From Bdellovibrionia bacterium (GTDB taxonomy: Bacteria > Bdellovibrionota > Bdellovibrionia > Bdellovibrionales > JAGQZY01): a stretch of DNA of 64,000 bases. Position 1 is the first letter of the stretch; each line of letters starts with the position of its first letter. The position numbers were made by a program, and so were the translations under genes. The notes under the pieces are model-generated. The model did not search any database and was not told where the DNA came from. It saw only the letters and a list, made by a program, of their open reading frames with translations. Where the stretch lies: assembly GCA_030427805.1 (NCBI GenBank), contig JAUICP010000004.1, positions 1 to 64,000 on the forward strand. Direction: 5' to 3'. Of the stretch, positions 604 to 29,172 are shown piece by piece.

Positions 604-636
604 AAATATATTAAATAGATAATTATGGAGGTATGG

Positions 637-1062
637 ATGTCCAAGAAAAAGCCCCGAAACGAGGCAAAGACAACACCAGATCAAATTGCAGAAGAGCTTG
701 AAGCAATCATGTACTACATCGGCAAAAGGGCTAAAAATAACCCTAAGCTCAAAGGACTCGCTACCATGCCGACCTCTATTATCACCGATAATGAGGTCAT
801 CTTTGAGGATGTCCCAGCTATAAAAACCAGAAAGGTACCTTCCGAGCAAGTTCACCTCATCATTGCTCCAAACGTGAGTAAAGATAAACAAGAGTCCGTA
901 AGAATAGACTTGCTTTCAAAGTTTAGTGGAGCCCTCTCAAGAGCCCAGCTTGAAGCCTATGAGACGATAAAAAATATGCTTTTTGGGATACTCAGCACTG
1001 AAGAGAAAGAAGATTTCCTCAGTGAATATAGAGAGGTTATCAAGAGCATCAGGAATACCTAA
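637..1062 (+). CDS. Hypothetical protein, first gene of a regulatory patch
   Basis: A 141-residue, charged, mostly helical protein without a signal peptide or membrane segment. The frame opens at ATG 625, but a GGAGG at 627-631 sits 5 nt before ATG 637, so I take 637 as the start (protein begins MSKKKPRNEA). Its stop overlaps the start of the CheY-like gene (TAATG at 1060-1064), so the two are translationally coupled and probably act together. I do not recognise a family. The neighbourhood (HTH proteins, receivers) suggests a regulatory role, which is inference. Confidence 0.65.
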   Translation: MSKKKPRNEAKTTPDQIAEELEAIMYYIGKRAKNNPKLKGLATMPTSIITDNEVIFEDVPAIKTRKVPSEQVHLIIAPNVSKDKQESVRIDLLSKFSGALSRAQLEAYETIKNMLFGILSTEEKEDFLSEYREVIKSIRNT

Positions 1063-1439
1063 TGAAAATACTGCTCGTAGATGACCAGCCAGATATCTTA
1101 GAGATAACTAAGGACCTTCTTGAACTAAGAGGCCATGAAGTCTTGGTGGCTCCAGGGGCACATGAAGCCATCTTACATCTGAAGACTTTTGGTCGAGTCG
1201 ATGCCATTGTTAGTGATTTTGAAATGCCTGATTCAAATGGAGAAGAGCTACGGTATGAAATCGAAAAAATATTCCAAGCATGTCCTCCATTTATTATTCA
1301 TACAGGCTGTGTAAACCCAGTCTGGAAGTACCCAACGACGCCTCAGAAAATTTACGCAACTTTTCATAAAACAGATCTTGAAGGTCTGTTTAAGGCACTT
1401 GATTCCATTAATGAGAACAGCTCCAAAAGAAGAGAGTAG
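1062..1439 (+). CDS. Stand-alone CheY-like response regulator receiver
   Basis: A 125-residue single receiver domain. It shows the acidic pocket (LLVDDQPD, residues 4-11), the phospho-accepting Asp near residue 53 (VSDFEMPDSNG) and the switch Thr region (IIHTG). The usual Lys-Pro pair is present only as FHKTD, so the fold is complete but slightly divergent. There is no output domain, so it must act by protein contact, as CheY or Spo0F do. It is coupled to the preceding gene by TAATG. A partner kinase could be the one encoded at 2555-4348, but that is a guess. Confidence 0.85.
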   Translation: MKILLVDDQPDILEITKDLLELRGHEVLVAPGAHEAILHLKTFGRVDAIVSDFEMPDSNGEELRYEIEKIFQACPPFIIHTGCVNPVWKYPTTPQKIYATFHKTDLEGLFKALDSINENSSKRRE

Positions 1440-1444
1440 AACTC

Positions 1445-1687
1445 ATGCTGAATAGCCAAGATAAATTGATACAGACGTTCAACATTACTGCCAGTAATGC
1501 CCTCAAGGCTGCCCGAAAAAGAGCAGGCATGACCCTACAGCAAGTATCTCAAAGCACCAACAGCTGTTCAATAGCAGACGTAGAACTTATCTTTTTTTGC
1601 CTAAATCCTTCGCGCTATAAAAAGGCTCTCTCAGAAAGACTTCCAAAACAATACTTTGCCCATAGCTCTGAGGAAAAAAATGAGTAA
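1445..1687 (+). CDS. Small HTH-like protein (possible truncated regulator)
   Basis: An 80-residue ORF whose middle (ALKAARKRAGMTLQQVSQST) looks like the first two helices of an XRE-type HTH. The recognition helix is poor, and the C-terminal half does not look like the rest of a repressor. It begins 5 nt after the upstream stop and overlaps the next start, so it sits in the same operon. It may be a truncated regulator or a small adaptor. Confidence 0.5.
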   Translation: MLNSQDKLIQTFNITASNALKAARKRAGMTLQQVSQSTNSCSIADVELIFFCLNPSRYKKALSERLPKQYFAHSSEEKNE

Positions 1688-2087
1688 CCTGTACCTAGCC
1701 TATGTTTCCAGATACGAGGAATATGCGGGACTCATAAAAGAAGTTTTAGAAACAAATACGCTCAAAGTTGACTGCTTTGACTCTCCTGAGAAAGCATTTT
1801 CTTCATTAAAAACCTCACCCCAAAAATACTTTGCCGTTATCTCGGGTTTTTATTTCGAGACCTATGATGGCTTAAGACTCATGGCAAAGCTTAAAGAAAA
1901 TGGTTCTTTTGGAATCAAATATCGAGCGATCTATTCAACAATGACCGGACTTGATCTTTTTTCCCATAGTAAAAAAATCAATGGCATTACTGATGATGAC
2001 ATCTCACTTATTGAAAAACCCCTCAACAGCATGAAACCTCTTCTCAACTACGTTGAGAAGATCACTAGCAAGGCTCTACAAAGTTAG
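1680..2087 (+). CDS. Degenerate receiver-domain protein
   Basis: A 135-residue protein with the length and alpha/beta pattern of a receiver (LYLAYVSRYEEYAGLIKEVL, then VISGFYFETYDGLRLM, then LIEKPL near the end). The conserved Lys-Pro is present, but the acidic pocket and the phospho-accepting Asp are missing: the expected Asp position reads VISGF. It would therefore be a phosphorylation-independent pseudo-receiver. ATG 1680 overlaps the stop of the previous ORF and is preferred over 1656. Downstream sequence continues as a protein-like open frame shifted by -1, so the original protein may have had a second domain. Confidence 0.6.
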   Translation: MSNLYLAYVSRYEEYAGLIKEVLETNTLKVDCFDSPEKAFSSLKTSPQKYFAVISGFYFETYDGLRLMAKLKENGSFGIKYRAIYSTMTGLDLFSHSKKINGITDDDISLIEKPLNSMKPLLNYVEKITSKALQS

Positions 2088-2554: not shown

Positions 2555-4348
2555 CTATACCCGTAACTCTTTAATCTCTGCATTATTGCGAAGTGAAGCT
2601 TCAAGATCTAACTCCCAGGGAGGTCTTTTGTTCTCCAGAACACCTTTAACCCAATATAAATGAGCAAATTCTGAAGAATCGAAATTACTAGAGATGAAAA
2701 GATTCTCATACCCTCTATCAAAAAGGTCCTTGGAAAAATCCTGTCCCTTAAATCGCGAGCCTTCAAAATTAGAGTCGATAAAAAAGAGTGTTTCAAGAGG
2801 CAGACTGCTATCTAATGTGCTTTCAAAAAACTCTTCAGGGGTTGAAAATCCTCTAAATGGACGCCCTACTTTCTTAGCCTCTATTTCCCAATTTTGCCGG
2901 ACAAGAGCGTCATCTTCAACAAGAGCAATTAGGGGCGACTTCTCTGCTATCTGAAGGATATCACCTATACTCAAAAACTGGGAAGAATTCGTAACTGGAA
3001 AGGAGAACTCCACAGTGGTACCTTTTCCAAAGTTTGAGCTAATGCCAATGTATCCACCCCAGGACTCAATCATCTCTTTAGCATGAAAAAGCCCTATACC
3101 ATTTCCTTTTCTCTTCGTAGTAAACCCCTCTTTAAATATCCTTTCTAGGTCTAGCTTTTTAATCCCAGCACCATCGTCAGTGACCTGAAATACAAGGTGG
3201 TTGTTAACAACTTTTGAGGTCACCAGAATAAAGCCATTGCCCTCAATCGCTTCAGACGCATTATTTAAGAGGTTAAACACGATAGTCTTTAGCTCACCTT
3301 TGTCCACCTTTGCCATTAAAGCATAGCTTTCATCTGAAAAAGAGAGCTGTACCTTCACATCTGAGAGTTTACGGCTAGACAGTATATATTCAGAGACTGC
3401 TTGTTCTACAAAATATGCCGCATACTCAGAAATCGCTGAAGTACCCGACTGACTGTTATTAGCCAAAAACCTATCCGCTAGGCCTTCAGTGATCGACTTC
3501 ACCTGAGAAGACAAACCTTGAAGATTAAGACACATCTCCTCTGTCACTTGCTCACCAGGCTTCACATTCAATAGACCTGAGTCCAGTCTTTCAATAGGAG
3601 TTTTCAGGTTGTGAATAAGAATCTTCCCAAACCTTTTGTCAGCTTCTAGCTGCTGCTTATTGAGAAGCTTTTCCTTCGCCCGATCGAGCTGCTTGGTGGC
3701 CTTAATCAAGGCGTCATACATAGGCCTTACTTCTTGGGGGCACTGTCTTCGTTGCATTTTAATTAATTGATAGTTCCGACTATCTACAAACCCCAGAATA
3801 GATGAGATAAGATCCTCAAAAGGCTTTTCGATACTTCTATTGACAATCACTCCTGACAACACCAAAAGCCCTATAAAGGCTGCAATAAAGAAGAAAAAGA
3901 ACACATAGTAGATCCAAGAGTCTACTCCCATCATACTGTACTTAGGAGTAACAACGACTGAATATACACTTGAAAGCTCGTCATTTAGCACCTTCACAAA
4001 GAATGGGCTTTTACTGCCAACTTTACAGGTTTCAGGATGAGCATTGTTCATGGGTATCTTCAAAAGAGGCTCACACTTTTTTGAGTACACGGTCACAGCG
4101 TCCACAAGGTCTAGTCCATATAGGGTCTTGCCGAGATGTCTGTACTTTGACTGAATTCTGTAATCTTCAAGTCCATTAAAGACAAGTGAGATCTGCTCAT
4201 CTAAAACGCTGTTGATAAAGCTCACATTCTTCTGAGCATTAAAAAAATAGAGAATCCCTGCGCCAATCAGGAAGAAAGCGAACAAGATTGATGAGACAAT
4301 CAGTGTGATTTTCGAAGATAGTTTGTTTTTGACTGAAACTTTCTTCAT
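2555..4348 (-). CDS. Hybrid membrane sensor histidine kinase
   Basis: Autophosphorylating sensor at the inner membrane. It has two membrane helices (about residues 15-38 and 147-172) around a roughly 110-residue periplasmic sensor part. A linker is followed by an H-box (KILIHNLKTPIERL, His about 248), an N-box (NLLNNASEAI, about 361), G-boxes (DDGAGI; GNGIGLFHAKEMI) and a C-terminal receiver (acidic pair VEDD near 480, Asp near 527 in FFIDSN, Lys in ENKRP). Numbering is from an upstream TTG (4354). ATG 4348 has an AGG ribosome site and is preferred. It is the last gene of the cassette and is coupled to the YcaO gene. A YcaO-modified or processed peptide presented by the periplasmic binding protein is a plausible input, but this is inferred. 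Confidence 0.9.
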   Translation of the reverse strand: MKKVSVKNKLSSKITLIVSSILFAFFLIGAGILYFFNAQKNVSFINSVLDEQISLVFNGLEDYRIQSKYRHLGKTLYGLDLVDAVTVYSKKCEPLLKIPMNNAHPETCKVGSKSPFFVKVLNDELSSVYSVVVTPKYSMMGVDSWIYYVFFFFFIAAFIGLLVLSGVIVNRSIEKPFEDLISSILGFVDSRNYQLIKMQRRQCPQEVRPMYDALIKATKQLDRAKEKLLNKQQLEADKRFGKILIHNLKTPIERLDSGLLNVKPGEQVTEEMCLNLQGLSSQVKSITEGLADRFLANNSQSGTSAISEYAAYFVEQAVSEYILSSRKLSDVKVQLSFSDESYALMAKVDKGELKTIVFNLLNNASEAIEGNGFILVTSKVVNNHLVFQVTDDGAGIKKLDLERIFKEGFTTKRKGNGIGLFHAKEMIESWGGYIGISSNFGKGTTVEFSFPVTNSSQFLSIGDILQIAEKSPLIALVEDDALVRQNWEIEAKKVGRPFRGFSTPEEFFESTLDSSLPLETLFFIDSNFEGSRFKGQDFSKDLFDRGYENLFISSNFDSSEFAHLYWVKGVLENKRPPWELDLEASLRNNAEIKELRV

Positions 4349-4350
4349 CT

Positions 4351-5337
4351 TCAACCTACAAAATGCTCATAATCTGGGATTTTATACTCATAACCATCCA
4401 GAGCAAAAACGTTGATTGTCTCCTCGTTCCACGCCCCTTGAAACATTGATAGGAAGCAAGGGCTTATAGCTCTACACATATAAAGTCCTTCTACTTCAGA
4501 GAAAAGGCTGGAGACCGACTCAGTCACCGTATATATATCTTTTTGAGCAACCTTTTCGCCAATCACCCGCACGGGATTGCTGTTACCTTCAAAGTAATCC
4601 TGTGGTTTCTCAAAATGCGGAGAATATGTTTTGTCGGTCTTGTGTAACTGCTCAAAAGCATGAATGATTCTTGGTGACAATTCTGAGAACGCCTTTTCTA
4701 AAGCTAGTCTTCGATCTTTTGATGATCCAAATCCAAAATAAGGACCAAGAGGAGTTTTCAAGCGACTGATTGCTACATAATGGGCAAGTGGGCCTCGAAG
4801 CTCAAAGAAATCCATTTCAAACTGCTCTGGCACCTTGTAATCCTGAACAATCGATGGAGCCTCAACTTTTTGAGGCTTTATCCCTGTTAAAAGTGAGTGC
4901 AGAATCGTGTGTCTTTCAATGATTTCTGCTATTGAGAACTCTTTGGCTTTCTTCTTATCCGTGTGGAGGGACAGCCCTGAAGTTGTCTGCCATATCCAGT
5001 TTGAGGCTTGAGGATACCTCTGTTCTATTTCACTAATGGTATATTCTGAACGTCTCAAAAGGCTCTCTTGCCTGAGAACATAGGGGCTATATGTGAAGAA
5101 GACAACTCTCTCTAAAAGCTCCATGACAGCTTTAAAACTTGCCTCATCCTGACTGGCTCCCGTTCCCCATCCGTCAATGCTTCTTCCCTCATACTGAATT
5201 GTCGCCTGGGTCGTAAATGGAAGCTCATAATCACCTGTAATATTTGGATACAGATGATAGGATAACTCACCATATCTTCCCTTAAGAAAGGATATAACAC
5301 CAGGGATGATGTTAGCGGCAGGCTTTCTACTTAACAC
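4351..5337 (-). CDS. YcaO-domain protein (peptide-modifying ATP-dependent enzyme family)
   Basis: YcaO enzymes use ATP to activate peptide backbone amides, making azolines, thioamides or amidines. Family landmarks are visible in order: GWGTGAS then AVMELLER (the SxxExxER-type ATP motif, about residues 70-77), TSGLSLH then SIAEIIER (135-142), GFGSSKDRRLALEKAFSEL (ExxExx-type, about 203-220) and the late GLYMCRAISP segment. At about 328 residues it is a bare YcaO domain without fused partner domains. The frame opens at 5448 inside the preceding gene. GTG 5337 has GGAGG just upstream and an 11-nt overlap, so I prefer it. The C-terminus lacks the proline-rich tail of azoline-forming members. Neighbours suggest the Cys-rich small protein at 6936-7250 as substrate. 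Confidence 0.8.
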   Translation of the reverse strand: MLSRKPAANIIPGVISFLKGRYGELSYHLYPNITGDYELPFTTQATIQYEGRSIDGWGTGASQDEASFKAVMELLERVVFFTYSPYVLRQESLLRRSEYTISEIEQRYPQASNWIWQTTSGLSLHTDKKKAKEFSIAEIIERHTILHSLLTGIKPQKVEAPSIVQDYKVPEQFEMDFFELRGPLAHYVAISRLKTPLGPYFGFGSSKDRRLALEKAFSELSPRIIHAFEQLHKTDKTYSPHFEKPQDYFEGNSNPVRVIGEKVAQKDIYTVTESVSSLFSEVEGLYMCRAISPCFLSMFQGAWNEETINVFALDGYEYKIPDYEHFVG

Positions 5338-6916
5338 GAATCCTCCAAAACTGAATCGCTTCATCCAGATAAATGTCGGACACCTCAATTTTGTCAGACC
5401 TAAAAAATGTGGGCATACTAACGTAATACAAGGGTATGCATTCTGCATCTAGAGTCATCTGCTTCAAAATGTCTTTGATAACAAGAGATTCTTGGTCTGG
5501 TTCATCTAGGCTTTGATACTTTTTAAGTAGCTCCTTAACTCTCCCCGTGGGGTCTTGAAAAAATGGCGTCTCATTTAAATATTGGAAATTAAGTGTTTCG
5601 CCAAGAACTTTGTAGCTCATAGAGATGGTGATAGTTAAGGCTTCATGCTTCTGAGTCTTAAGCACATTCTCATATTCAGCACCGTTCATATCAGCCTTAA
5701 GAGATACATTGACTCCCAAAATGTCACTCAAGGATCTCTCTAAGCCTGGGAGTAGGTAATTCTCCATCCCAGTTACTGTTTCGATACTAAAGCCGTCCTT
5801 CAACTCGTCAGGGACCTTTTGTGTATCGACATTCTCAAGAAGTTCATAGATTTTCGCATTAGCAACGTAACCTTTGGCTTGTGGCAAGAAGAATTGATAG
5901 GCTTTCTCTGATATACCTTTAGTGCTCTCTGGAACTTCGTAGCTATCAAGGACTCGCTTAAGAACCCACCTTCGAGTGCTTTCATTTTTAAACACCTTAC
6001 TTTTAGCGTTCAAAGATAATGCCGTAATTCCATCATTTTTGGAGCCAAATAGCTTAAACCCATCTATATTTTTGACTTTTTCCTGGAGTTTTAAGTAAAC
6101 CATAGGGCGCAGTTCCCCAAGGTGAAGGTCTCCAGCCTGAATTTTTTTGGATAACTCCTCTATATCCGAAGTGCTTTGAAAAAATATCTTTTGAGGCATA
6201 TCCTCTGAATAGTTCAGAGCCGCTTGGTTTGCCACAAACGCCATTTTCCCGTCTTCAATCTTGGCTCGGTAAGGGCCACTTGTAACTTCAGTCCAATCTT
6301 TAACCTGGAGGCGGTCTTTTTTGTATTGTGATGAGTGAAGAATACCTAAATCTGTTAGCTGTAAATAATAGAGAGCTTCTTTTGTCGAGTGGTTAAACCT
6401 TAAAATAAGCTCACTTTTTGAGACAACTTGAACTCCAGCTATTTCATCATCTATAGATTTAAGCTTATCAGCATCACGAAAAACATCTGCCCCCTTAAAA
6501 TGAGGCGTCCCAAGAATAATCGCTCTCTTTATTGACTTTACAACATCCTCAATGGTGATTCTATCCCCATTACTGAAGTATGCTTCCTTTATCTTGATTC
6601 TAAACTCACTGCCGTCAGAGCTTTTTTCAATACTCTCTGCAAGTTGGTTTTTATAGTTTTCCTTTCCATCAATCTCCACAAGGTTAATCATAAGGCTTTG
6701 GAGATAATGATATTCAGTCGTGTATCTCAAGAATGAAGGATCAAGTGTACTGTCAACATTAAAAGGAGTTAATAGAACCGAGATTTCCATATTTTTCTTC
6801 ACAAACTTCCCCTCCATCAAAGGCAGTGATAACAAGACTGTTGTTGTCACTACCACAAAAAATAGTACCCTTTTGTAGCTTTTAAAATAAACCTTATCCT
6901 TCAGAAAGCTGACCAT
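5327..6916 (-). CDS. Membrane-anchored family-5 (oligopeptide-type) solute-binding protein
   Basis: A 529-residue protein resembling DppA/OppA periplasmic binding proteins. An N-terminal basic stretch and hydrophobic helix (about residues 14-33) is followed by the typical entry (LLTPFNVDSTLDPSFL, LVEIDGKENYKNQLAESIEKSSDGSEFRIKI..AYFSNGDRITIEDV). It lacks a lipobox Cys, so it is probably tethered by an uncleaved helix. No permease or ATPase genes accompany it, so it is more likely a receptor subunit than an importer. It sits between the small Cys-rich protein and the YcaO gene. Presenting a peptide to the sensor kinase encoded two genes later is the natural reading, but it is inference. Confidence 0.8.
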   Translation of the reverse strand: MVSFLKDKVYFKSYKRVLFFVVVTTTVLLSLPLMEGKFVKKNMEISVLLTPFNVDSTLDPSFLRYTTEYHYLQSLMINLVEIDGKENYKNQLAESIEKSSDGSEFRIKIKEAYFSNGDRITIEDVVKSIKRAIILGTPHFKGADVFRDADKLKSIDDEIAGVQVVSKSELILRFNHSTKEALYYLQLTDLGILHSSQYKKDRLQVKDWTEVTSGPYRAKIEDGKMAFVANQAALNYSEDMPQKIFFQSTSDIEELSKKIQAGDLHLGELRPMVYLKLQEKVKNIDGFKLFGSKNDGITALSLNAKSKVFKNESTRRWVLKRVLDSYEVPESTKGISEKAYQFFLPQAKGYVANAKIYELLENVDTQKVPDELKDGFSIETVTGMENYLLPGLERSLSDILGVNVSLKADMNGAEYENVLKTQKHEALTITISMSYKVLGETLNFQYLNETPFFQDPTGRVKELLKKYQSLDEPDQESLVIKDILKQMTLDAECIPLYYVSMPTFFRSDKIEVSDIYLDEAIQFWRIRVK

Positions 6917-6935
6917 CTTCCGGGGCCTCTTGAGA

Positions 6936-7250
6936 TCATGGAACTACACAGCCTACACATGGCTGTGTATCAAAAGACGACTTTTGAGGTTTAGGAATCA
7001 TACATACTTCGCATGGCTGTGTGTCACTAGACTTCTGGCTTTTGTAGTACAGCTCTAAAAGCTTGTAATACAACTCAAGTCTCTCTTCTGGTGAAGATGA
7101 TTCAAACTCCTCAAGCCTTTCTTGAACAACTTCATCTGCCATTGCAGCTTGGTCTATAGCTTCTGACACCAAAGTCTCTGTGGCCCCTGCAAACTGAGAC
7201 GACGATACTAGCCCTAAGATCGCTAACATTGATTTAATTCTACTCTTCAT
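6936..7250 (-). CDS. Small secreted protein with duplicated DTQPCxxC tail; candidate modified-peptide precursor
   Basis: A 104-residue protein with a signal peptide (positive N-terminus, hydrophobic 8-16, likely cleavage after AGA at about 23). An acidic helical middle contains a tandem ELYYK, and the tail holds two near-identical units, SSDTQPCEVCMIP (74-86) and SSFDTQPCVGCVVP (91-104). Its only Cys are 80, 83, 98 and 101. The start ATG has AGGAGGGAG before it and overlaps the previous stop. Leader-plus-repeated-core layout next to a YcaO gene is how ribosomal peptide precursors look. A Sec signal on a YcaO substrate is unusual, so a CxxC metal- or thiol-binding secreted protein is the main alternative. 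Confidence 0.65.
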   Translation of the reverse strand: MKSRIKSMLAILGLVSSSQFAGATETLVSEAIDQAAMADEVVQERLEEFESSSPEERLELYYKLLELYYKSQKSSDTQPCEVCMIPKPQKSSFDTQPCVGCVVP

Positions 7251-7446
7251 TTTCTCCCTCCTTATGAATTGAGTTTCTTATTTTTTCCCAGCACTCATTA
7301 AGCTGAGATATTGTCTTGTTCATTTCCTCCACTGGATCATCAACAATTGAGTTATAAGAGGCATCTTCCCCAAAAGATCGAATGAGAATCTGCCCATGGT
7401 TTAAAAGGGTTCTAAACTCATGGGTTGCCTTATTTCGATCACTCAT
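7240..7446 (-). CDS. Stand-alone histidine-phosphotransfer/DHp-like small protein
   Basis: A 68-residue protein whose start resembles the H-box helix of histidine kinases (ATHEFRTLLNHGQILI, compare the SHELRTPLN consensus), His at about residue 9. A loop and a second amphipathic helix follow (PVEEMNKTISQLNECWEKI). That is the size of one helical hairpin of a dimerisation/phosphotransfer domain with no ATPase part. It overlaps the response regulator gene by 4 nt and the precursor gene by 11 nt, so it is made with them. A role as phosphate shuttle between the hybrid kinase (2555-4348) and the regulator (7443-8813) is inferred. Confidence 0.55.
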   Translation of the reverse strand: MSDRNKATHEFRTLLNHGQILIRSFGEDASYNSIVDDPVEEMNKTISQLNECWEKIRNSIHKEGENEE

Positions 7447-8813
7447 AAACGCCCCCTTCTTTGAGCTTCTAAAGACTCATACTTCTCCTCAAGCCGGTAG
7501 TATTTCGTACTCCCCATCTCTAAAAAGCGCATGGTCTGCCTCTTGGACTCTTTTTTAAAGACCTTAAAGGCCTCAAGCTCTATTTCTTCAATGAAGCTCT
7601 TTAGCCCGTTGTTTCTGATATAGTTAAGCTGGGCCTTAGTAATAAGAGTGTTTCTATCTACTCTATGAGGGTTCCTATTTTCTCTGATATGCTTTGGAAG
7701 ATCAGACAAACGAATAATAGGGGTATCCATCTCTTTTCTTTCAGAAAAAAAGCTCTGGATCTCCCGAATGTTTCCCGGCCATGAATAACCACAAAGGCTT
7801 TTTACAGCATCCTTATCAATTGCCAGGGCTCTACCAAAGTTTTGTTTAAAGTGGTCAACAAGAAGCTCTACATCCTCTTTTCTCTCAGATAGAGGCAGTA
7901 GGTTGATATTTGCTCCTGAGATTCGAAAGTAGAAATCCTCCCTAAAGGTCTTCTTACTGATCTTTTCAAAGATATTGTCACAAGTGGCACTGATGATTCT
8001 AAAGTTTGATGAGACCTTTTTATTTGAACCCAAGGGGTAGAAAGACTTTTCTTCAATGGCCTTTAAAAGCTTTTGCTGAATATTCAGACTCATTGTCCCG
8101 ATTTCATCTAGGAACAGGGTCCCGCCGTTGGCTTCTTCAAGCTTTCCTTTCTTATCAGTTGTAGCTCCGGTAAAGGCGTCTTTTTTGTGTCCAAAAAGCT
8201 CATCTTCTAAAAGATCTTCTTTAAGGTTTGAGCAATTAAGCTCAACAAACTTCTTAAGATCTCCATGGACAGATTCATGAATAATTTGGGCAAGCTTGGT
8301 TTTTCCAACTCCCGTTGGTCCATGGATAAATATAGGCACTTCGCTATAAAGGGTTTCTTTTTTGATGCGCTCAAGTTCTTGCTTAAGGACTTCATTTCTG
8401 GTCAAAAACTTCTCTTCAACCAAAGCCTTAAACCTTGCCTGGACCACAGGCTTTTTAAGGTTCTTAATGACTCGCAAAATGGAATCAATGTCATAGGGCT
8501 TAAGAAGATAGTCCTTACAGCCCAGCTCATAGGCTCTTTCAATATCAGCGTTAGAATCGTTGCCAGTAAGAATCACTGGAACAACATTTCTAGAGATCAA
8601 ATCCGGTAAAAGAAGAAAGCCTTCCTTTCCGACATCAGGACTGAGATCCAAGTCCACAAGAGCAAGATCAAAGGTAGCCCCTTTAATTTCCTCTCGTGCT
8701 GTCTCTACAGAGTTTGCATGAGTAACCAAGAACCCACGCCCCTCAAGATCTTTTATAATTGAGCTAGCGATTAGCTTGTCATCTTCAATTAAAAGAATTC
8801 TTACTTTCTTCAA
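7443..8813 (-). CDS. NtrC-family sigma-54-dependent response regulator
   Basis: A 456-residue activator. The receiver shows Asp at about 54 (ALVDLDL) and Lys 105 (LLKPYD). The AAA+ domain has Walker A GPTGVGKT (165-172), the sigma-54 contact loop as DAFTGA (212-217, normally GAFTGA) and Walker B LFLDEI (233-238). A short C-terminal helical region probably binds DNA. Phosphorylation allows the AAA+ ring to open sigma-54 promoters. The frame starts with TTG 8813, with GGGAG 8 nt before it. First gene of the cassette operon. The strong -24/-12 match at 9056-9071 in front of the transfer operon is the obvious target. Confidence 0.9.
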   Translation of the reverse strand: MKKVRILLIEDDKLIASSIIKDLEGRGFLVTHANSVETAREEIKGATFDLALVDLDLSPDVGKEGFLLLPDLISRNVVPVILTGNDSNADIERAYELGCKDYLLKPYDIDSILRVIKNLKKPVVQARFKALVEEKFLTRNEVLKQELERIKKETLYSEVPIFIHGPTGVGKTKLAQIIHESVHGDLKKFVELNCSNLKEDLLEDELFGHKKDAFTGATTDKKGKLEEANGGTLFLDEIGTMSLNIQQKLLKAIEEKSFYPLGSNKKVSSNFRIISATCDNIFEKISKKTFREDFYFRISGANINLLPLSERKEDVELLVDHFKQNFGRALAIDKDAVKSLCGYSWPGNIREIQSFFSERKEMDTPIIRLSDLPKHIRENRNPHRVDRNTLITKAQLNYIRNNGLKSFIEEIELEAFKVFKKESKRQTMRFLEMGSTKYYRLEEKYESLEAQRRGRL

Positions 8814-9055: not shown

Positions 9056-9071
9056 TGGCATTGCCCTTGCT
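9056..9071 (+). promoter_or_regulatory. Sigma-54 (-24/-12) promoter of the transfer operon
   Basis: TGGCATTGCCCTTGCT matches the sigma-54 consensus TGGCACG-N4-TTGCW at both invariant dinucleotides and has the correct spacing; only positions 6-7 differ. The predicted start point is near 9082, with a ribosome site (AGGAGGGG) and ATG at 9113 after it. No competing strong -35/-10 pair is obvious. The nearest gene upstream encodes a sigma-54 activator. Confidence 0.75.
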
Positions 9072-9112: not shown

Positions 9113-9394
9113 ATGAATTTCACAGCAATTAAAAACACGTTCTTTGATTTTGGTTACTGCATCTCTATTAATGAGCTTTGTGGCAACCACAGGTTGGTTT
9201 CTGAGATTGAAAAGACTGAGCTACTTCTGAACTCAACAGACTCTTACGCAAAACCTGTAAGAGCCTTGAGATCAAGATTCTCAAAGCTCTTCTCTCAAAT
9301 CAGCGAGCAAGAGTTCAGTACAAACTCAGAGCTACGAAGACACATCTCAAAAATTGAAAGTCTCATCAGCACACCAGCAAATGTCGCAGTCTAG
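9113..9394 (+). CDS. Small hypothetical protein, first gene of the transfer operon
   Basis: 93 residues. The frame is open from 8966, but AGGAGGGG directly before ATG 9113 and the sigma-54 promoter at 9056-9071 fix the start there. It is helical and charged, and its C-terminal end (EFSTNSELRRHISKIESLIS) resembles the C-terminal half of the 47-residue protein two genes later (ELSSNHKLIEMIQKIESRLV). No signal peptide or known domain. As the promoter-proximal gene it may have a regulatory or early-transfer role; not recognised. Confidence 0.65.
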   Translation: MNFTAIKNTFFDFGYCISINELCGNHRLVSEIEKTELLLNSTDSYAKPVRALRSRFSKLFSQISEQEFSTNSELRRHISKIESLISTPANVAV

Positions 9395-9430
9395 GTGCTG
9401 ACTTTAACTAAAAAGACAGAGGGGAAAGAA

Positions 9431-9586
9431 ATGCTACTAAAAAATCTATTTCAAAAACTGAAAGCGAAGCTCAAACAAAAGCTGGGACGCAAAAACTACA
9501 AGAAGCACTTTAACTACGAGCTTATCCAGAGACAAAAAGAGGAACTGCTTCTTAAAAACAAGATGCTCTACCCAGCTTTATTCTAA
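9431..9586 (+). CDS. Very small basic protein
   Basis: 51 residues, extremely Lys-rich (MLLKNLFQKLKAKLKQKLGRKNYK...). GAGGGG lies 6 nt upstream of ATG 9431, which I prefer over the frame opening at 9395. The basic amphipathic N-terminal half could bind nucleic acid or membrane. No family recognised. Confidence 0.5.
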   Translation: MLLKNLFQKLKAKLKQKLGRKNYKKHFNYELIQRQKEELLLKNKMLYPALF

Positions 9587-9601
9587 CACGGAGGGATAAC
9601 G

Positions 9602-9745
9602 ATGAATTACGCAAGCCTACAAAGAATCAAGGAGCTTTTCAGAGACTGGTATGGCTCTTTATCAGTTGAAGAGCTTTCCTCAAACCACAAACTTATCGAG
9701 ATGATCCAGAAGATTGAATCACGTCTCGTCATGATTACAGATTAA
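9602..9745 (+). CDS. 47-residue protein related to the C-terminus of the first operon gene
   Basis: ATG 9602 follows a GGAGGG ribosome site by 7 nt, and the frame ends at TAA 9743-9745. The protein begins MNYASLQRIKELFRDWYG. Its second half (ELSSNHKLIEMIQKIES) matches the pattern of residues about 68-87 of the 9113 gene product, so the two are probably paralogous. Function unknown. Confidence 0.55.
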   Translation: MNYASLQRIKELFRDWYGSLSVEELSSNHKLIEMIQKIESRLVMITD

Positions 9746-9756
9746 AGGAACTGCTT

Positions 9757-9966
9757 ATGAACCTATCAACTATTAAGGATGAAACGATTCTTGAAGAGGC
9801 CGTCTTACGGCTAAAAAAGAGAATTCGTAAGAAAACTGGCATGGAGCTTCTTTTTGGGGATCTTGTTCTCACTCTCCACGAAGGTATTTTAAAAAAGATT
9901 GAATATGGGGTGCGAGGTAGGTGCTTTATCAAGGATTCCAAGATATTGAAAGGAGGACACCAATGA
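9757..9966 (+). CDS. Small hypothetical protein
   Basis: 69 residues, ATG 9757 after AAAGGA. It begins MNLSTIKDETILEEAVLRLK, followed by a basic RLKKRIRKKTG stretch and a mixed alpha/beta end. It overlaps the next start by 3 nt (ATGA), so it is translated in coupling. Not recognised. A shadow ORF on the other strand covers it but has no ribosome site. Confidence 0.55.
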   Translation: MNLSTIKDETILEEAVLRLKKRIRKKTGMELLFGDLVLTLHEGILKKIEYGVRGRCFIKDSKILKGGHQ

Positions 9967-10127
9967 ACACTTTAGTCTCAGACCTATTTCTCGTACTGGA
10001 TCTTGTTAGCAAGAAAGAAAAACGAAAAAACCGCCAACTTTCATACGCCACTCAGCGGATCAAAAATGGCCTTCGACAGCTAAAACAGAATGCAAAAGCT
10101 TTAAAGGGAAAACGAAATGAAAAATGA
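9963..10127 (+). CDS. Small basic hypothetical protein
   Basis: 54 residues. AGGAGG 7 nt before ATG 9963 and the ATGA overlap with the previous stop define the start. It is rich in Lys and Arg (SKKEKRKNRQ, KQNAKALKGKRNEK). It overlaps the coupling-protein gene by 11 nt. Basic small proteins before T4SS genes can be relaxosome or entry-region factors; no family recognised. Confidence 0.5.
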   Translation: MNTLVSDLFLVLDLVSKKEKRKNRQLSYATQRIKNGLRQLKQNAKALKGKRNEK

Positions 10128-10959
10128 AGACATTTCTCCTGCCATGGCCATTGTGGTTTTAATTGGAACTGGCGCTCTGTTTTTAGGACTTAAGAACTAT
10201 CGGTTTTTAGAGGCTAACTGGACTGATATTATGGACTCACTTGAAATGAGTAGCCTGTTTTTAACAGTCTTGGTGTCAACACTGAGTTTAAATGTCCTCA
10301 CTATCTCTGTATTTTTAGAAAGAACCCTTGGCTACAAGAAGCAAGGTAGCAGACTCAGAAGTATTAAACGAAAACCCCTTCGCCTAAGAGAGTTTTTTGG
10401 GAAAGCTTTACTCTCAGTGCTTACACCTTTTGTCTTCTTAGAAAAGGCCAAGGTGTTAGCAATTCAAGAAAGCCAACACCTTCAATGGCTACTCACAGAC
10501 CAGCAGTATGATCTTCTCATTAAGGTTTTCATCTACTCAGGTCTTGGTCTAGGGGCTTTTATCACCTATGGACTGATTTCTTTGGCACTAAGGATTAGTG
10601 GGATTCTGACAGTGAGTACGGGGCTTCCTCTGAGAACTACGGTCAAAGACCATCTAACCCTGGGCTCAATTGGAGAAGAAAAGGACGAGGCTGACAAAGG
10701 GCTTACGCCTAAGTGGGTGGTCGTTCCCACTAAAGCCCTTAACGGCAATATTCTTGTCACAGGCTCCATTGGAACAGGAAAGACCCAAGGGACAATTTTA
10801 ACCTATGTCGATCAGCTCTTTAAAAACTTCTCTCAAACACCAACGGCCCTCATTCTAGACCCCAAAGGAAGCTTTATTCAAAATGTTGCCAGAATGCTTA
10901 AGGCCCGAGGCCTTTCTGATCGCTGTATTTTCCTAGGAGATATTAATGCACACGTTTAA
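10117..10959 (+). CDS. Type IV coupling protein, N-terminal part (Walker A half)
   Basis: 280 residues: N-terminal membrane helices (about 9-25, 42-60, 140-160), then the start of a VirD4/TraD/TraG ATPase domain with Walker A GSIGTGKT and the DPKGSF strand. It stops at TAA 10957-10959 exactly where coupling proteins continue with an FNP motif. The next ORF in the +1 frame supplies that (FNPVY) and the rest. Skipping one base at GTT TAA C would fuse them. Alternatively the next ORF starts at ATG 10946, which has AGGAG 6 nt upstream. Sequencing error cannot be excluded. Confidence 0.85.
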   Translation: MKNEDISPAMAIVVLIGTGALFLGLKNYRFLEANWTDIMDSLEMSSLFLTVLVSTLSLNVLTISVFLERTLGYKKQGSRLRSIKRKPLRLREFFGKALLSVLTPFVFLEKAKVLAIQESQHLQWLLTDQQYDLLIKVFIYSGLGLGAFITYGLISLALRISGILTVSTGLPLRTTVKDHLTLGSIGEEKDEADKGLTPKWVVVPTKALNGNILVTGSIGTGKTQGTILTYVDQLFKNFSQTPTALILDPKGSFIQNVARMLKARGLSDRCIFLGDINAHV

Positions 10960-13168
10960 CCCTGTATATGTGGCAGATCCACTAAAAAACTCCAATTACA
11001 TGGAAGTGGCCAGCATGATCCGAGCAGCAGCAAAAAACTTCTCCGGTAAAGCCAAAGAGTCTCCTATCTGGGAAGACTCTGCTTTCAACCTTACAAAAAA
11101 CACTATCGTGTACTGTGCAGCTATCCATGGGTATTTCACCTTAAATGACTGCTATGAGGCCATGCTAAAAGCCGATAGTGGCGAGATCATTGAAGAGCTT
11201 GAAGCTGCTATTTCCTGTGAGAATGGAGAAAAGCCCCTGTTTGATGAAGAGGAAGTCTACAATATAGAATGTGCGATCAAGTATTTCAAAGAATACCAAC
11301 AATTTGAAGACAAGTTCAAATCAGGTGTTCTCGTTACAAGCACGACTTTTCTAAACCAGTTTCAAGACTATAATGCCTCTAAACTCTTCTGCCCGTCTTT
11401 TGAAGACTTGACCATCAAATCAATGGATGAAATGGTTGATAGTGGAAAGGTCATCTTATTTAACCTTAAAAACGAAGCCCTTTCTCGTTCAATGGGTACT
11501 TTTATCAAGCTTCACTATGAACGCTCCGTTTTAAATAGACTTAAAGACCCTAGTAGAAGTAAAGATATTATGGCAGTCCTGATTGCTGATGAATACCAGG
11601 ACCTGGTCTCTGTAGGCTATGGCGGCTCCATTGGTGATGATAAAATTTGTGCCAAAGGAAGAGAGGCCAATTTCTTTTTTCTTGCTGCCTCTCAAAGTAT
11701 CAACTCAATCTATAATGCTGTTGGCAATGAAAAGGCTGCCAAAGAGCTCATCCAAAACTTTAGAACCCGTATTGCCTGTCACTCATCAGATATTGAGACC
11801 ATCAGAAATTTTAAAGAACTGATGGGACAAGAAGAAAGGGAAAAAACAAGCCACAGTGTTTCTGAAAACTCTCAAAAAACAACGAGAAACTTCATTCTAG
11901 GGGGATTTGATACCAAAGGAGCAAATATCAATGAGTCCATCAGTACAAGCCAGCAAAAAGAGTATCTGGTTACAGGAAAGGAGTTTTCAAAGCTAAGATC
12001 CTTTGAGTCCTTTGCCCAGGTGTATGATGGGATTGAGACTAAGTTTTATAAGATGTATCTAAAGCCTCATTTCCTAAAAAAGAAGAGGACAAGTCACAAT
12101 AAGGTGCTAAGGGCGTTATCCTCTCAAAAATCTATTTTCTCTTTTAAGGGTATTTTCGGAAGATTTTCTAAATGGGGGACGACTGCGGCAGGCCTTTTCT
12201 TCTTACTCTTCTCTCCCCTGGCAATGGGGTTTCCCAATGTCTGCTCCGTGGTCAAGACCAAGGAGTTTAATTCATGCATGAATTTTAGGTACTCTTTAAG
12301 TATGTGTGGATGGCCTATCCCTAGACCATGTGCTCATTTTAGCTACTATGTACCTCAGACCTTTATTGAAGTTACCCCCAAGGTTGGCGATTCTCACTTC
12401 TCGACTCTTCCAGGAGCAGCTTTACAACTTGCTGACACTCCCTTTCTTCCTCCTTTTGGAATGGAGGGAGATGATGATACCCAGTCCTACCACGCACGAA
12501 CAATCTCAGTCCCCTTGGCTCAAATTCCCTTTAGAGCACTTCCTTGCGGCGGAACAAGGCTTCCAAAGCTATGCTTTGATGGGATGAGTGAGCATATAGC
12601 TTCGCACTGGTCCACTGGAGTGGGGGATAAGTATCAGCCAAACTTTCTTGCCTGGTCACTTTCCCCTAAAGCCTGTCTCATCAAGGGTGCCGTATCTTCA
12701 GCAACTGGAGGAACAGATACTAGCTTTTCAAGTGATTCTCCGATGTGCAGCATCCCTCTACCAACTGTGCCATTCCCACCATCAACTCACTCGGCCTGTA
12801 ATGGATGGGGTGTGTTTTACCCGAGGATGGGAAGCTATAACGGACCAGCCTCTTTAACAGGAGCTTTGATGATTGCCTCTAGGATGAAATCTCTATCATC
12901 AGAGGTTTTTAGGTCCAGCCCATCATCTTTTGGTGAAAAGTGGCAGATGATCAGCCCTGGAAGTAGCTCTTGTTTTAATGAGGGGCAAAATATCGGGCTT
13001 TTAGAAAGTATTAAGCATGTCAGAGAAATCGGAAGGCTTAAAAGTGGAAGGCTTTCAGGACACCTATTTGTTGTCTGGAAGCCTGTAAGTTGCACAAGAG
13101 ACCTGCCATATATTGCAAGCTCAAAAGCTGCTCTTGCTACCATGAAACCCATTTGCCAGGGGCTTTAA
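10946..13168 (+). CDS. Coupling protein C-terminal half fused to a TraU-like protein
   Basis: 740 residues in two parts. Residues 1 to about 380 are the remainder of the coupling-protein ATPase (FNPVY, the Walker B-like VLIADEYQD, LAASQSINSIYNAVG, NFRTRIACHSSD). After a membrane/signal-like helix (TTAAGLFFLLFSPLAMG, about residue 410), residues 425-740 are Cys-rich and match the F-type TraU pattern (FPNVCS, FNSCMNFRYSLSMCG, GWGVFYPRMGSYNG, KWQMISPG). TraU works in the periplasm in pilus assembly and mating-pair formation, so the fusion would span the inner membrane with ATPase inside and TraU outside, unless it is cleaved at the helix. This gene order and fusion are not the F plasmid arrangement. 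Confidence 0.8.
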   Translation: MHTFNPVYVADPLKNSNYMEVASMIRAAAKNFSGKAKESPIWEDSAFNLTKNTIVYCAAIHGYFTLNDCYEAMLKADSGEIIEELEAAISCENGEKPLFDEEEVYNIECAIKYFKEYQQFEDKFKSGVLVTSTTFLNQFQDYNASKLFCPSFEDLTIKSMDEMVDSGKVILFNLKNEALSRSMGTFIKLHYERSVLNRLKDPSRSKDIMAVLIADEYQDLVSVGYGGSIGDDKICAKGREANFFFLAASQSINSIYNAVGNEKAAKELIQNFRTRIACHSSDIETIRNFKELMGQEEREKTSHSVSENSQKTTRNFILGGFDTKGANINESISTSQQKEYLVTGKEFSKLRSFESFAQVYDGIETKFYKMYLKPHFLKKKRTSHNKVLRALSSQKSIFSFKGIFGRFSKWGTTAAGLFFLLFSPLAMGFPNVCSVVKTKEFNSCMNFRYSLSMCGWPIPRPCAHFSYYVPQTFIEVTPKVGDSHFSTLPGAALQLADTPFLPPFGMEGDDDTQSYHARTISVPLAQIPFRALPCGGTRLPKLCFDGMSEHIASHWSTGVGDKYQPNFLAWSLSPKACLIKGAVSSATGGTDTSFSSDSPMCSIPLPTVPFPPSTHSACNGWGVFYPRMGSYNGPASLTGALMIASRMKSLSSEVFRSSPSSFGEKWQMISPGSSSCFNEGQNIGLLESIKHVREIGRLKSGRLSGHLFVVWKPVSCTRDLPYIASSKAALATMKPICQGL

Positions 13169-13170
13169 TA

Positions 13171-14307
13171 ATGGGACAGATCACTATAGAGCATAGACAG
13201 ACAAATGAAGAAAAACTTTCAGCTATTGCACCCTACACCTCTTTGTTTCGAGATGCTTTAAAAGAAGCTCACAGACTTTTAGCTAGTGATATCCATATTG
13301 AGCCCACAACTGATGGGCTTCAAATCAGAATCAGGGTCAATGGAGATCTCTACACATATAAAGAGCTTGGTGTTGAGCATAGGCAAAGCTTCATTCAAGA
13401 GGTAAAAAGGCTTTCAAACCTTTCTATTGCCATAAGCACCCGTCCCCAAGATAGCCGCCTGTCTCTTCCATCATGGAACCTTGCTTTAAGAGTCAATTCC
13501 ACGCCAACTCTTTACGGAGAAAAGATCGTCTTACGGCTTTTAGATATGACAACTGATTTTGATCTTAGCACGACAAGTTTAAGTGACGATGTTATCACTG
13601 ATCTCAAAATAGCAGCGACTGAGAAGAATGGAGTCATCATTATCTCAGGACCTACGGGAAGTGGGAAAAGTCGCACACTGTTTAGTCTTCTCAATTCTCT
13701 AGAGAAAAAAACCAAGAACATTGTTTCTCTTGAAGATCCTATTGAGTACATCTTTAAGGGCATTAGCCAAATAGAGATCAAGAAGTCTTTATCCTTTGCA
13801 GATGGCTTAAGGGCCATCTTAAGGCAAGACCCTGACATTATACTTGTTGGAGAGATCAGAGACTTTGAGACAGCAGATCTTTGTTTTAAAGCAGCAGCCA
13901 CCGGGCATTTAGTCATATCAACTCTACATGCCAATAGTTCTACGAAAGTCATCGAAAGACTTAAAAACATGGGTGTTGATGAATATATGATTCAATCAAA
14001 CCTTAAGTTTTCAGCAGCTCAAAGGCTTGTCAAAAAACTCTGTTCTTATTGCGCGTTTGTACCTAATAAGGAAGACCTCTCTAACAATCCTGCTTTTAAC
14101 CTGTCTTCAGTAAGAACCCAGAACCATCAAGGCTGTAGCCATTGTACAAATGGGATCACCGGCAGACTTCCCGTTATGGAGTATCTGACAAAAAATGAGC
14201 TAAAAGATGCTCAAAACCTAAAGCCCAAGAGAAGTCTCAGACAAGAGTGCCTAAATAAAGCCAATCAAGGACTTATCGACTATAAGGAGGTCTTAGCCTA
14301 TGCGTAA
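13171..14307 (+). CDS. GspE/PilB-type secretion ATPase
   Basis: 379 residues from ATG 13171, three nt after the previous stop. The frame opens earlier, but 13171 has CCAGGGG upstream. Motifs: ASDIHIEP (38-45), Walker A GPTGSGKS (160-167), an Asp box (EDPIEY), Walker B IILVGEIRD (about 226) and the His box LHANSS. Two CxxC pairs (CSYC, CSHC) form the zinc element typical of GspE/PilB rather than VirB11 or PilT. It lacks the N-terminal GspE domain. F-type systems normally have no such ATPase, so its job here (pilus retraction or assembly, or VirB11-like energising) is open. Confidence 0.85.
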   Translation: MGQITIEHRQTNEEKLSAIAPYTSLFRDALKEAHRLLASDIHIEPTTDGLQIRIRVNGDLYTYKELGVEHRQSFIQEVKRLSNLSIAISTRPQDSRLSLPSWNLALRVNSTPTLYGEKIVLRLLDMTTDFDLSTTSLSDDVITDLKIAATEKNGVIIISGPTGSGKSRTLFSLLNSLEKKTKNIVSLEDPIEYIFKGISQIEIKKSLSFADGLRAILRQDPDIILVGEIRDFETADLCFKAAATGHLVISTLHANSSTKVIERLKNMGVDEYMIQSNLKFSAAQRLVKKLCSYCAFVPNKEDLSNNPAFNLSSVRTQNHQGCSHCTNGITGRLPVMEYLTKNELKDAQNLKPKRSLRQECLNKANQGLIDYKEVLAYA

Positions 14308-17886: not shown

Positions 17887-18780
17887 GCAGAAAAGGACAA
17901 AGATAAAAGCCAGATCCAATCGGAACCGCAGGAAGTAAAAGCTGACGCTCAAAAGAACGTCAATGAGGTCAGACTTCACGCCTCTGATGGGACACTACCC
18001 ACCTCAACTCCGGAAAAAGAGGAGACTAGTGGCTCTTCTTCATCAAGAAGAGGGAAAAGGGCTCGCCCTTCCCGTCTTCGTGGTCCAGGAGTTATTTCTT
18101 TCCCTGTAAAACATAAAAGAAAAGAAGAAGGCATTACTCTTCCCACAGGAAGCTACGTCAAAGCCACCCTCATGACAGGAATTGATGCCCCAGAAGGAAA
18201 GACCTACCCAGTTCTCCTAGCCCTTGATTACTCCTATGTCGGTCCCAATAAGCACAAGGTAGACCTTTCAGGGTGCTTTATCATCGCTAAAAGCTCTCCC
18301 TCAATGGCAACTGAAAGAATTAACTTTCAGGCAACCAGACTTTCGTGTGTGTCAAAGAAAGGAAAGTTCTTTGAGCGAAAGATCAGTGGCTTTGTCGCTG
18401 ATGACACTGACAACACCTTTGCGGTTCGTGCAGAGCTTAATTCCAAGCAAGGCCGCGTAGCAAAGATGGCCTTCTTAAAATCCGTTGTTGATGGTGTTGG
18501 AGAAATCATCACACGAAAGGCTAAAAACGTCGGTGGCAAGAATCCTGATTCTGCCAACGTCCTTGTTCAGAACGGAGCCCAGGGGGCAGCTTCCAAGGTC
18601 AGCGACTGGTACTTAAAACAAGTCACATCTCTTATGCCCACTCTATCCGTTAGTTCTGGTCAGAACATGTGGATTGTCATGCAAGAAAAAGTCTTACTTC
18701 CAAACGACTTTTTTAGAAAAAACCAAAGGAGAAATAGTAATGGGAAAGTATTTTCATACCTTACTCGTATTATCGATTAG
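17867..18780 (+). CDS. TraB/VirB10-like protein, -1 frame part
   Basis: The -1 frame is open from 17842 to TAG/stop at 18780. It begins with a charged, Ser/Pro-rich linker (APRPQTSAEKDKDKSQ) and reaches the family hallmark ITLPTGSYVKATLMTGIDAP. A beta-domain with DLSGCFIIAKS and a late amphipathic region follow. TraB links inner and outer membranes in the T4SS core. The first ATG in frame is 18172, inside the conserved domain and without a ribosome site, so separate initiation would lose the PTGSYV strand. Expression through frameshift is therefore the better reading; full product about 419 residues. Confidence 0.75.
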
Positions 18781-19033
18781 TGCGTTGATGGTGGGCTGTG
18801 CTCACCACTTTAAAAACATAGGAATTCTTGAAAAAAGGGCCAATTACCATAGTCCTACTAAAAGCCAAGGCATCCCGGAACGGGTTATGAGAACTAAGGG
18901 TAAAGTCAAAAAAGCCTGGCTTCACGCTCATGAGATGCCCACAGGGGATTATTTCGGAGGAGCCTGGGTATATCTGCTGGTTGAAGAGACTCAATGGACA
19001 TTTCCAGAAACTCTCACTTCAGGAGGCAAATAA
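18740..19033 (+). CDS. TraV-like outer-membrane lipoprotein
   Basis: 97 residues from ATG 18740 (AAAGGAG upstream), overlapping the TraB end. A lipoprotein signal with lipobox LMVGC (Cys at about 18) is followed by a short polar mature protein. TraV-like lipoproteins seal the core complex at the outer membrane. The order TraK-TraB-TraV-TraC supports the call; the mature sequence is too divergent to judge. Confidence 0.65.
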   Translation: MGKYFHTLLVLSISALMVGCAHHFKNIGILEKRANYHSPTKSQGIPERVMRTKGKVKKAWLHAHEMPTGDYFGGAWVYLLVEETQWTFPETLTSGGK

Positions 19034-19034
19034 T

Positions 19035-21617: not shown

Positions 21618-22923
21618 TTTTTTATTTTCACTAGCTCTGTCAACTGTTTCATGGGGAAAAGACTTTAACTACAGGCATAACTCCGAGCTTTCAGCCTCTG
21701 ATTACCTGTTTAAAGAGCGAAGCAACCAGGGTGATTCTGTCTTTGAGAACTATCAGACCGTTGACCTTGGATTCAGTCTCGGAGTTGGAGCTGATTGTGG
21801 CAAAGTGGATTTTAAAAGCACTCTTCAAGGCACTTTAAAAAATCTCCTTGATGCCAAATACTTTGAGTCTGTGGGAAACAGTATCCTTGCTGGAAGCCCC
21901 ATGCTTCTGACCTGCTACTTTAGCCCCACATGGTGCTCAATTCTTAAGCACACAAGAATCAATGCCAATTTCCTCTCTCAAATGAGACTCGATCAGTGTG
22001 CTCTTATTGATAAGTACGTTGATAACAGAACTGATGATTTCAAAAAAGAAAGACAGGGCTGTGTTCATCAGGCCATTCAAAGAAATGGCGGCAATATGGA
22101 AAAAGCCATGAAGGAATGTCAGTCCGGCTCTGACTACTCTGTAGATCTTGCTAACTGGGCAGGTAGTCGGTTTGGCTCTAAGGCAAGCCAAAATAAGCTC
22201 ATTGAGTCTTCTGCAAAGTGGGCTGGCTTTAACTCCTCTGAGTCTCAAAAAGCACTGGGGCTTTTAAAGGCATTAGTGGGAGATACTGTCATTGGAAAAG
22301 GTCAGGTTTCTGTTGAGTATGGCCCGAGGAAAAAGGCCATCACTCCCAGAACTAGGCTTTATGAGATTGAAAAAGACACCTATGAAAATCTTTGCCGAGG
22401 ACTTTTAAAAAAGATGGATCGCAGTGGTAATCGCGCAAGTCTTGATAGGATTATCAGCCAAGAAGATCTCAAGAAAATCGGTGGCAATAAGATTGAAAAC
22501 TATATTGACCGCCAGACACTGAGATACCTTTCATATCTCCCCTTTATTAAAAGAGGCTCTTATTGCAGAAAGCTTGCCTCATCCATTGCTATGACCAAGT
22601 TCTCTGAAGAGATGAACCAGTCTCTAGATATGCTCAATATCTTGGAGCAAAACCCCAATCTACCCTCTAAGCGTAAAAACGAGATCTCAGAGAAACGAAA
22701 GAAGCTTAAGGACTCTATTGACGCAACCCTTCAGCTCCAGGAGGTCAAAAATACGCCCTTAAATGCTGTTGTCTCCCAGATCACCCGTGAAGGACGCATT
22801 TACCAAGGCAAGGCCACTCAGAGGGTCTTTAGCAATGAAGCCGACAGAATCAATTCTGAGCGCTCTGAAGCCGAACTCTTTGACTGTTCTGACGGCATTC
22901 TCTGCTCCCAGGGAGGTCAGTGA
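21604..22923 (+). CDS. TraH-like secreted mating-pair protein
   Basis: I take TTG 21604 as start because AGGGAGGAG sits just before it and the product then begins with a good signal peptide (RTISFLFSLALSTVSWG); the frame itself opens at 21577. About 440 residues, close to F TraH. The mature protein has several Cys (ADCGKVDF, LLTCYFSPTWC, LDQC, QGC, KEC) and long helices in the C-terminal half. In F, traH directly precedes traG, and a TraG-like gene follows here with a 4-nt overlap. Call is mostly by size, export signal and order. Confidence 0.55.
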   Translation: MRTISFLFSLALSTVSWGKDFNYRHNSELSASDYLFKERSNQGDSVFENYQTVDLGFSLGVGADCGKVDFKSTLQGTLKNLLDAKYFESVGNSILAGSPMLLTCYFSPTWCSILKHTRINANFLSQMRLDQCALIDKYVDNRTDDFKKERQGCVHQAIQRNGGNMEKAMKECQSGSDYSVDLANWAGSRFGSKASQNKLIESSAKWAGFNSSESQKALGLLKALVGDTVIGKGQVSVEYGPRKKAITPRTRLYEIEKDTYENLCRGLLKKMDRSGNRASLDRIISQEDLKKIGGNKIENYIDRQTLRYLSYLPFIKRGSYCRKLASSIAMTKFSEEMNQSLDMLNILEQNPNLPSKRKNEISEKRKKLKDSIDATLQLQEVKNTPLNAVVSQITREGRIYQGKATQRVFSNEADRINSERSEAELFDCSDGILCSQGGQ

Positions 22924-24419: not shown

Positions 24420-24448
24420 GCACAGGTTTAGCGAGCAACGTGAGCTAT

Positions 24449-24563: not shown

Positions 24564-24741
24564 ATACTTGCATGAACAAAACGACCCTAAATCCCCCTCA
24601 ACATACCTCAAAAGAACCAAGGACAAAAAATGCGACAAACCACAAAAACAAAAGGAACAACACCAGCCTAAAAAATATGACTACCAAGTATCTAAGCAGC
24701 CAAACGAATAACTTTAATCAGTAAAAATGAAAGGAGAAATT

Positions 24742-26965: not shown

Positions 26966-26988
26966 CTCTTAAATTTTGGAGAAATATT

Positions 26989-27348: not shown

Positions 27349-27404
27349 TTTGTGACAAACAAAAATTTTCTGCGGGCGCATTATCTTAAAAAATGGAGAC
27401 AATG

Positions 27405-27632: not shown

Positions 27633-27640
27633 GAGGTTTC

Positions 27641-28981: not shown

Positions 28982-28992
28982 CTGGGACCACC

Positions 28993-29162: not shown

Positions 29163-29172
29163 TAATAAAAAC

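Follow-up and report, generated by a model that had tools for sequence, protein, structure and literature searches.

A YcaO-linked candidate peptide-signalling cassette recurs in Bdellovibrionota, often beside conjugation genes

The Vibrio LuxPQ-LuxU-LuxO pathway joins a periplasmic binding protein and a membrane hybrid kinase to an NtrC-type sigma-54 regulator; the binding protein, LuxP, is of the sugar type, and its ligand is AI-2 made by LuxS. The Agr and ComQXPA systems keep a precursor, its modifying enzyme, a kinase and a regulator in one operon. In enterococcal pCF10 and in ICEBs1, short exported peptides and OppA-like proteins are tied to the control of conjugative elements, with the peptide entering the cell to reach its receptor in the cytosol. 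YcaO enzymes that modify ribosomal peptides (RiPPs) or proteins were also compared, namely E. coli YcaO, MJ1094, McbD/TruD and ItfB (PMC10352776). These enzymes have the YcaO fold with its Glu/Arg motifs, and the RiPP members have an adjoining precursor.

The window, which is the whole 64,000-nt stretch of DNA analysed here, comes from a member of the Bdellovibrionota, a phylum of predatory bacteria. An earlier note, made from the letters alone, had placed six closely packed genes on the minus strand at 2555-8813. Their positions and packing were confirmed, and Pfam domain matches backed the naming of the NtrC-type regulator, the family-5 solute-binding protein (SBP), the YcaO protein and the sensor kinase. 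The cassette genes were as follows.

7443-8813, minus strand: NtrC-type response regulator with a TTG start (REC PF00072, 4e-14; Sigma54_activat PF00158, 5e-55)
7240-7446, minus strand: 68-aa protein with an HEFRT H-box-like motif (sequence motif only)
6936-7250, minus strand: 104-aa secreted Cys-repeat protein, the putative precursor, with a signal peptide, a leader and two C-terminal DTQPCxxC repeats (sequence, alignment with relatives)
5327-6916, minus strand: family-5 SBP with an N-terminal helix/anchor, putative peptide receptor (Pfam SBP_bac_5, 5e-20)
4351-5337, minus strand: stand-alone YcaO (Pfam PF02624, 3e-12); the ORF reaches 5448
2555-4354, minus strand: hybrid sensor kinase (Pfam HATPase_c, 8e-20; topology, motifs)

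The regulator carried the Walker A motif GPTGVGKT, a DAFTGA motif and a C-terminal HTH-like tail, and one copy of rpoN was present in the genome. The kinase was laid out as a TM, a periplasmic loop of about 118 aa, a second TM, a DHp domain (HNLKTP), an HATPase domain and a receiver-like C-terminus. Its earlier description as a hybrid kinase held for HATPase_c by Pfam, while the receiver was recognised by its motif (VEDD... IDSN... K) and received no Pfam call. Neither small gene, 68-aa or 104-aa, had a Pfam family match. The 68-aa protein had been called DHp-like; its HEFRT motif makes it a possible phosphotransfer protein, but no homologue was found in the relatives searched and it occurred only in the window. 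Because the gene is not conserved, it was rejected as a general phosphotransfer part. The probable start of the YcaO gene is the GTG at 5337, which follows the RBS GGAGG and would give a product of 328 aa; the alternative ATG at 5448 would overlap the SBP gene by 122 nt. Small receiver-like proteins (1062-1439 and 1656-2087, within 625-2087, plus strand) flanked the cassette, and the protein at 1656-2087 resembled proteins beside cassettes L108 and L115.

As in LuxPQ, a binding protein was combined with a two-TM kinase that has a periplasmic loop. For a possible phosphorelay, the window offers a receiver-like domain recognised by motif and the 68-aa HPt candidate, together with a clear NtrC-type regulator. 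The SBP was of the OppA/NikA-like SBP_bac_5 type and not of the LuxP sugar-binding type, and the operon held a gene-encoded peptide and a YcaO enzyme together with this SBP. As with Agr and ComQXPA, a single operon combines precursor, enzyme, kinase and regulator, and promoter-like sites suggest autoinduction, but the cassette is Gram-negative, has YcaO in place of AgrB/ComQ and a Sec leader on the precursor, and sets an SBP receptor before the kinase and a sigma-54 output after it. Because the LuxP type and AgrB/ComQ are absent, it is a member of neither group. Like pCF10 and ICEBs1, it would tie a short exported peptide and an OppA-like protein to a conjugative element, but a kinase relay is predicted here in place of peptide import; in contrast to known YcaO enzymes, the precursor has a signal peptide, there is no partner protein and sensory genes share the operon. 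No comparable pheromone system based on ribosomal peptides is known to us from Gram-negative bacteria. The open-licence literature gave no description of this gene set, of which the earlier note had likewise known no described example, nor of such a system in Bdellovibrionota.

The YcaO family was reached only by Pfam or profile search. The window YcaO as a single-sequence query gave no match in genome contigs, viral contigs or plasmids, and tblastn with the relatives' proteins gave none in plasmids or phages. A YcaO match was present in 30 of 99 relatives (those with names were mostly Bdellovibrionaceae MAGs, in a scan with narrow patterns), and a profile built from 23 cassette YcaOs matched 133 of 369 Bdellovibrionota genomes. 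About 78 YcaO neighbourhoods were inspected, with genes called by a custom script. Family-5 SBP, YcaO and histidine kinase genes lay side by side in about 63 loci, with or without NtrC, in the order (NtrC)-small protein-SBP-YcaO-kinase or YcaO-small protein-SBP-kinase-NtrC. This genome-neighbourhood search, which the earlier note had proposed, led us to reject a chance, one-off gene pairing; the 68-aa gene was not among the conserved parts. Long YcaO proteins (L064-L070) were assigned to other contexts, as were short YcaOs of the same family (L128, L133, L136 and L137), which had no SBP neighbours and represent other uses of the enzyme.

A PF02624 search showed a second YcaO in the window's genome, on another contig. 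It belonged to a complete cassette of NtrC, small secreted protein, SBP, YcaO and kinase (G000:C1:147600-153400; L004:5602-11356), with a different tail, SSDVICVGGA, and another TraC gene 8-10 kb away. The window copy was a divergent member, its YcaO being about 20% identical to relatives and 20% identical to the L004 YcaO of the same genome. The earlier note was supported in its overall reading: two of its three refuting conditions were checked and neither spoke against it, and the joint divergence of the genes, the sigma-54 sites before NtrC-carrying cassettes and the Cys-rich tails speak for it as well. It had missed this second copy and the link to conjugative elements.

The YcaO profile matched the MJ1094 YcaO (1.8e-13), a methanogen enzyme from the family linked to thioamidation, and also McbD, TruD and LynD. 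An AlphaFold model of the window YcaO (pLDDT 82) gave Foldseek matches to M. kandleri YcaO (6cib, 7.6e-9), E. coli YcaO and McbD, with modest TM-scores (about 0.5). Residues E73, E76, E138, E141 and R142 aligned with E75, E78, E199, E202 and R203 of E. coli YcaO, which belong to the nucleotide/metal site of that enzyme. The earlier note had named a YcaO fold without the ATP-binding residues as refuting its reading; compared in this way with characterised enzymes, the protein kept both the YcaO fold of solved structures and the conserved Glu/Arg motifs. No cyclodehydratase partner (E1/ocin-ThiF) or TfuA recurred in the cassette neighbourhoods. Such a partner is usual for YcaO RiPP clusters, though not universal, and its absence is not decisive because some YcaOs act alone.

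The earlier note had held that clusters lacking the small gene but keeping the rest would speak against its reading. Of 60 assessable cassettes, 59 had, next to the SBP or YcaO gene, a small protein whose N-terminus resembles a signal peptide, the exception being L134, where no clear candidate was seen; L060, L122 and L123 were masked or cut off and stand outside this count, and the picks at L045, L046, L048, L107 and L129 were weak. NCBIfam held no model for these proteins. Behind the signal peptide came a leader conserved within groups (type A, S[IVL]xxxLxxxG; type B, LExLPxEQR ... VDExGxVYVL) and then a short variable C-terminal tail, for example RGGTICF, SSICIGGGEEN, EPSCWTAPY or VQPSSIGG. 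The window leader was divergent from those of relatives, and its tail was the tandem repeat DTQPCEVC...DTQPCVGC. Cys made up 4.2% of the last 20 residues against 0.7% of the middle (6-fold, P=3e-13), and 39 of 59 small proteins had Cys within the last 20 residues (13% expected). Several tails had no Cys (PSSIGG, TTISVV), and in a few (L048, L129) a Ser/Thr core was not obvious. A conserved leader followed by a short, hypervariable C-terminal tail is characteristic of RiPP precursors.

The cassette genes diverged together. Pairwise distances over 60 loci correlated at r=0.84 for YcaO-SBP, 0.67 for YcaO-kinase and 0.68 for SBP-kinase, and at r 0.82-0.89 for comparisons with NtrC (26 loci; YcaO-NtrC 0.88). 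For each pair, 0 of 500 permutations reached the observed value, although shared descent inflates such correlations. Cassette copies within one genome were often not each other's nearest. L102 and L039, which come from different families, were 94-99% identical in YcaO, SBP and kinase, which indicates recent transfer as a unit; both adjoin TraC genes. Judged from these sequences, the cassette travels as a unit.

Transfer genes also lay beside the window cassette, on the plus strand.

9056-9071, plus strand: sigma-54 -24/-12-like site TGGCATTGCCCTTGCT, one mismatch, about 40 nt before the ATG at 9113
9113-14307, plus strand: divergent operon (Pfam TraG-D_C, TrwB_AAD_bind, T2SSE)
about 10117-12050, plus strand: TraD/VirD4-like coupling protein (Pfam)
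13090-14307, plus strand: VirB11-like T2SSE ATPase (Pfam)
18172-26965, plus strand: region of further transfer genes (Pfam)
18172-18780, plus strand: TrbI-like (Pfam)
18930-21617, plus strand: TraC/VirB4 (Pfam)
25076-26965, plus strand: MOB relaxase (Pfam)

A relaxase, a tyrosine-type integrase and an AbiEi-type antitoxin gene lay at 25076-29766, features of an integrative conjugative element. Among the cassettes, 19 of 63 had TraC/VirB4, the T4SS ATPase, at less than 20 kb, against 1.4 expected (0 of 200,000 simulations); the simulation covered 57 cassette genomes and took no account of the contig breaks that reduce the observed count, and a few PF19044 matches may be other T4SS-type ATPases. 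All conjugation-linked cassettes carried NtrC (19 of 28, against 0 of 33 without it; P=2e-9), and both cassettes of the window's genome were among them. Since the cassette is often beside DNA-transfer genes, a peptide signal may control gene exchange in these bacteria.

Sigma-54 sites were sought with the pattern TGGCAC-N5-TTGCW, with GG and GC kept. Sites with at most two mismatches lay upstream of 17 of 28 cassettes with NtrC, compared with 2 of 33 without it and 14 of 391 control genes (P=5e-15 against the controls). At up to three mismatches, the numbers were 20 of 28 and 7 of 33 (P=1e-4). Perfect or one-mismatch sites stood just 5' of the annotated first gene at L110, L115, L051 and L106, and at its annotated start at L109, L120 and L039, where the gene probably begins further in than annotated. 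Given these sites before NtrC-carrying cassettes, autoinduction is predicted. In the window, no clear site preceded the NtrC gene itself; the only strong one near the cassette was that at 9056-9071, which faces the divergent operon, whose ATG at 9113 has the RBS AGGAGGGG. Comparable sites preceded the first gene of the divergent operon at L115 and L121, and at L108 with two mismatches, and these operons likewise lead to transfer-type genes. The first gene behind the L115 site (L115:13088-13729) encodes a sigma-70 region-4 domain; homologues of this protein were seen in L108, L109 and L121. About half of the cassettes had no NtrC and were not near transfer genes; where NtrC is missing, the signal probably goes to other regulators.

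We consider it fairly probable that the cassette is an autoinducing peptide (pheromone) system: a Sec-exported, YcaO-modified peptide would be sensed by SBP and kinase, NtrC would pass the signal on, and conjugation would be a main target. From sequence we infer the following chemistry, ligand, signal flow and effect on conjugation. The small protein would be the precursor, whose short C-terminal core the cytoplasmic YcaO would modify, most likely to a Cys/Ser/Thr azoline or by another backbone-amide change. The signal peptide would take it to the periplasm, where proteolysis would release the core. The family-5 SBP would capture the core peptide and bring it to the kinase at the periplasmic loop; the kinase would then phosphorylate the NtrC-type regulator, and the regulator would open sigma-54 promoters. 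Such a promoter would control the cassette itself in most NtrC-carrying relatives, giving autoinduction. In the window and in some relatives, one would control the divergent conjugation operon, so that the signal would turn on transfer of the element.

Two TMs around a loop of about 100-125 aa were found in nearly all cassette kinases. The AlphaFold model of the SBP (pLDDT 85) matched NikA, OppA and MppA in Foldseek (E to 7e-30), with NikA on top. As the model also resembles OppA and MppA, the latter of which binds murein tripeptide, and as many of the hosts are probably predators, the receptor might instead respond to a ligand from outside, for instance prey peptides or cell-wall peptides. 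The small protein would then be an accessory, modified by YcaO, that adjusts the action of the SBP or the kinase. Small proteins without a Cys tail agree with this, but the hypervariable short tails behind conserved leaders look like RiPP precursors, and the sigma-54 sites put precursor and YcaO under the same regulator; we regard an outside ligand as unlikely. The ligands of family-5 proteins also include metals and other compounds. With NikA as top match, Cys-enriched tails and two CxxC motifs in the window tail, a YcaO-modified Cys peptide could chelate a metal in the manner of a metallophore, the NikA-relative SBP detecting the complex. However, no TonB receptor or permease recurred in the cassettes, several tails have no Cys and the link to conjugation would be left unexplained, so metal sensing seems very unlikely. 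A bacteriocin-like, self-sensed peptide carried as cargo on mobile elements would fit the RiPP-like precursor, the enzyme and the mobile context, but the genes conserved next to them encode a receptor and a regulator, and neither an immunity gene nor a dedicated exporter or maturation protease recurred, which makes it highly improbable.

No permease and ATPase genes recurred with the SBP, in agreement with the earlier note's family-5 protein without permease, and a plain oligopeptide ABC importer was therefore rejected. At L050:694-11536, a single YcaO and precursor lay amid three SBP and three kinase genes, a possible receptor expansion.

The pheromone reading can be extended, tentatively and with a little less than an even chance, to the whole phylum: YcaO-made Gram-negative pheromones, exported by Sec, sensed by SBP and kinase and relayed through sigma-54, would time the transfer of the predators' conjugative elements. 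If so, a whole phylum of predators would have a peptide language, YcaO would have a new role, and a new precursor family would have been missed by current libraries. Cell signalling would also be joined to conjugation by a testable link; because the cores are gene-encoded and C-terminal, synthetic peptides and deletion strains allow a direct test.

A second one-mismatch sigma-54-like site was present in the window at 62305-62320 (plus strand), about 200 nt before the ORF 62519-63565. Beside another cassette, at L053:10400-15000, many small ORFs carried a regular repeated motif (SDWLTDSHLLF / NNRWESVSQSE), and this region looks like a CRISPR array.
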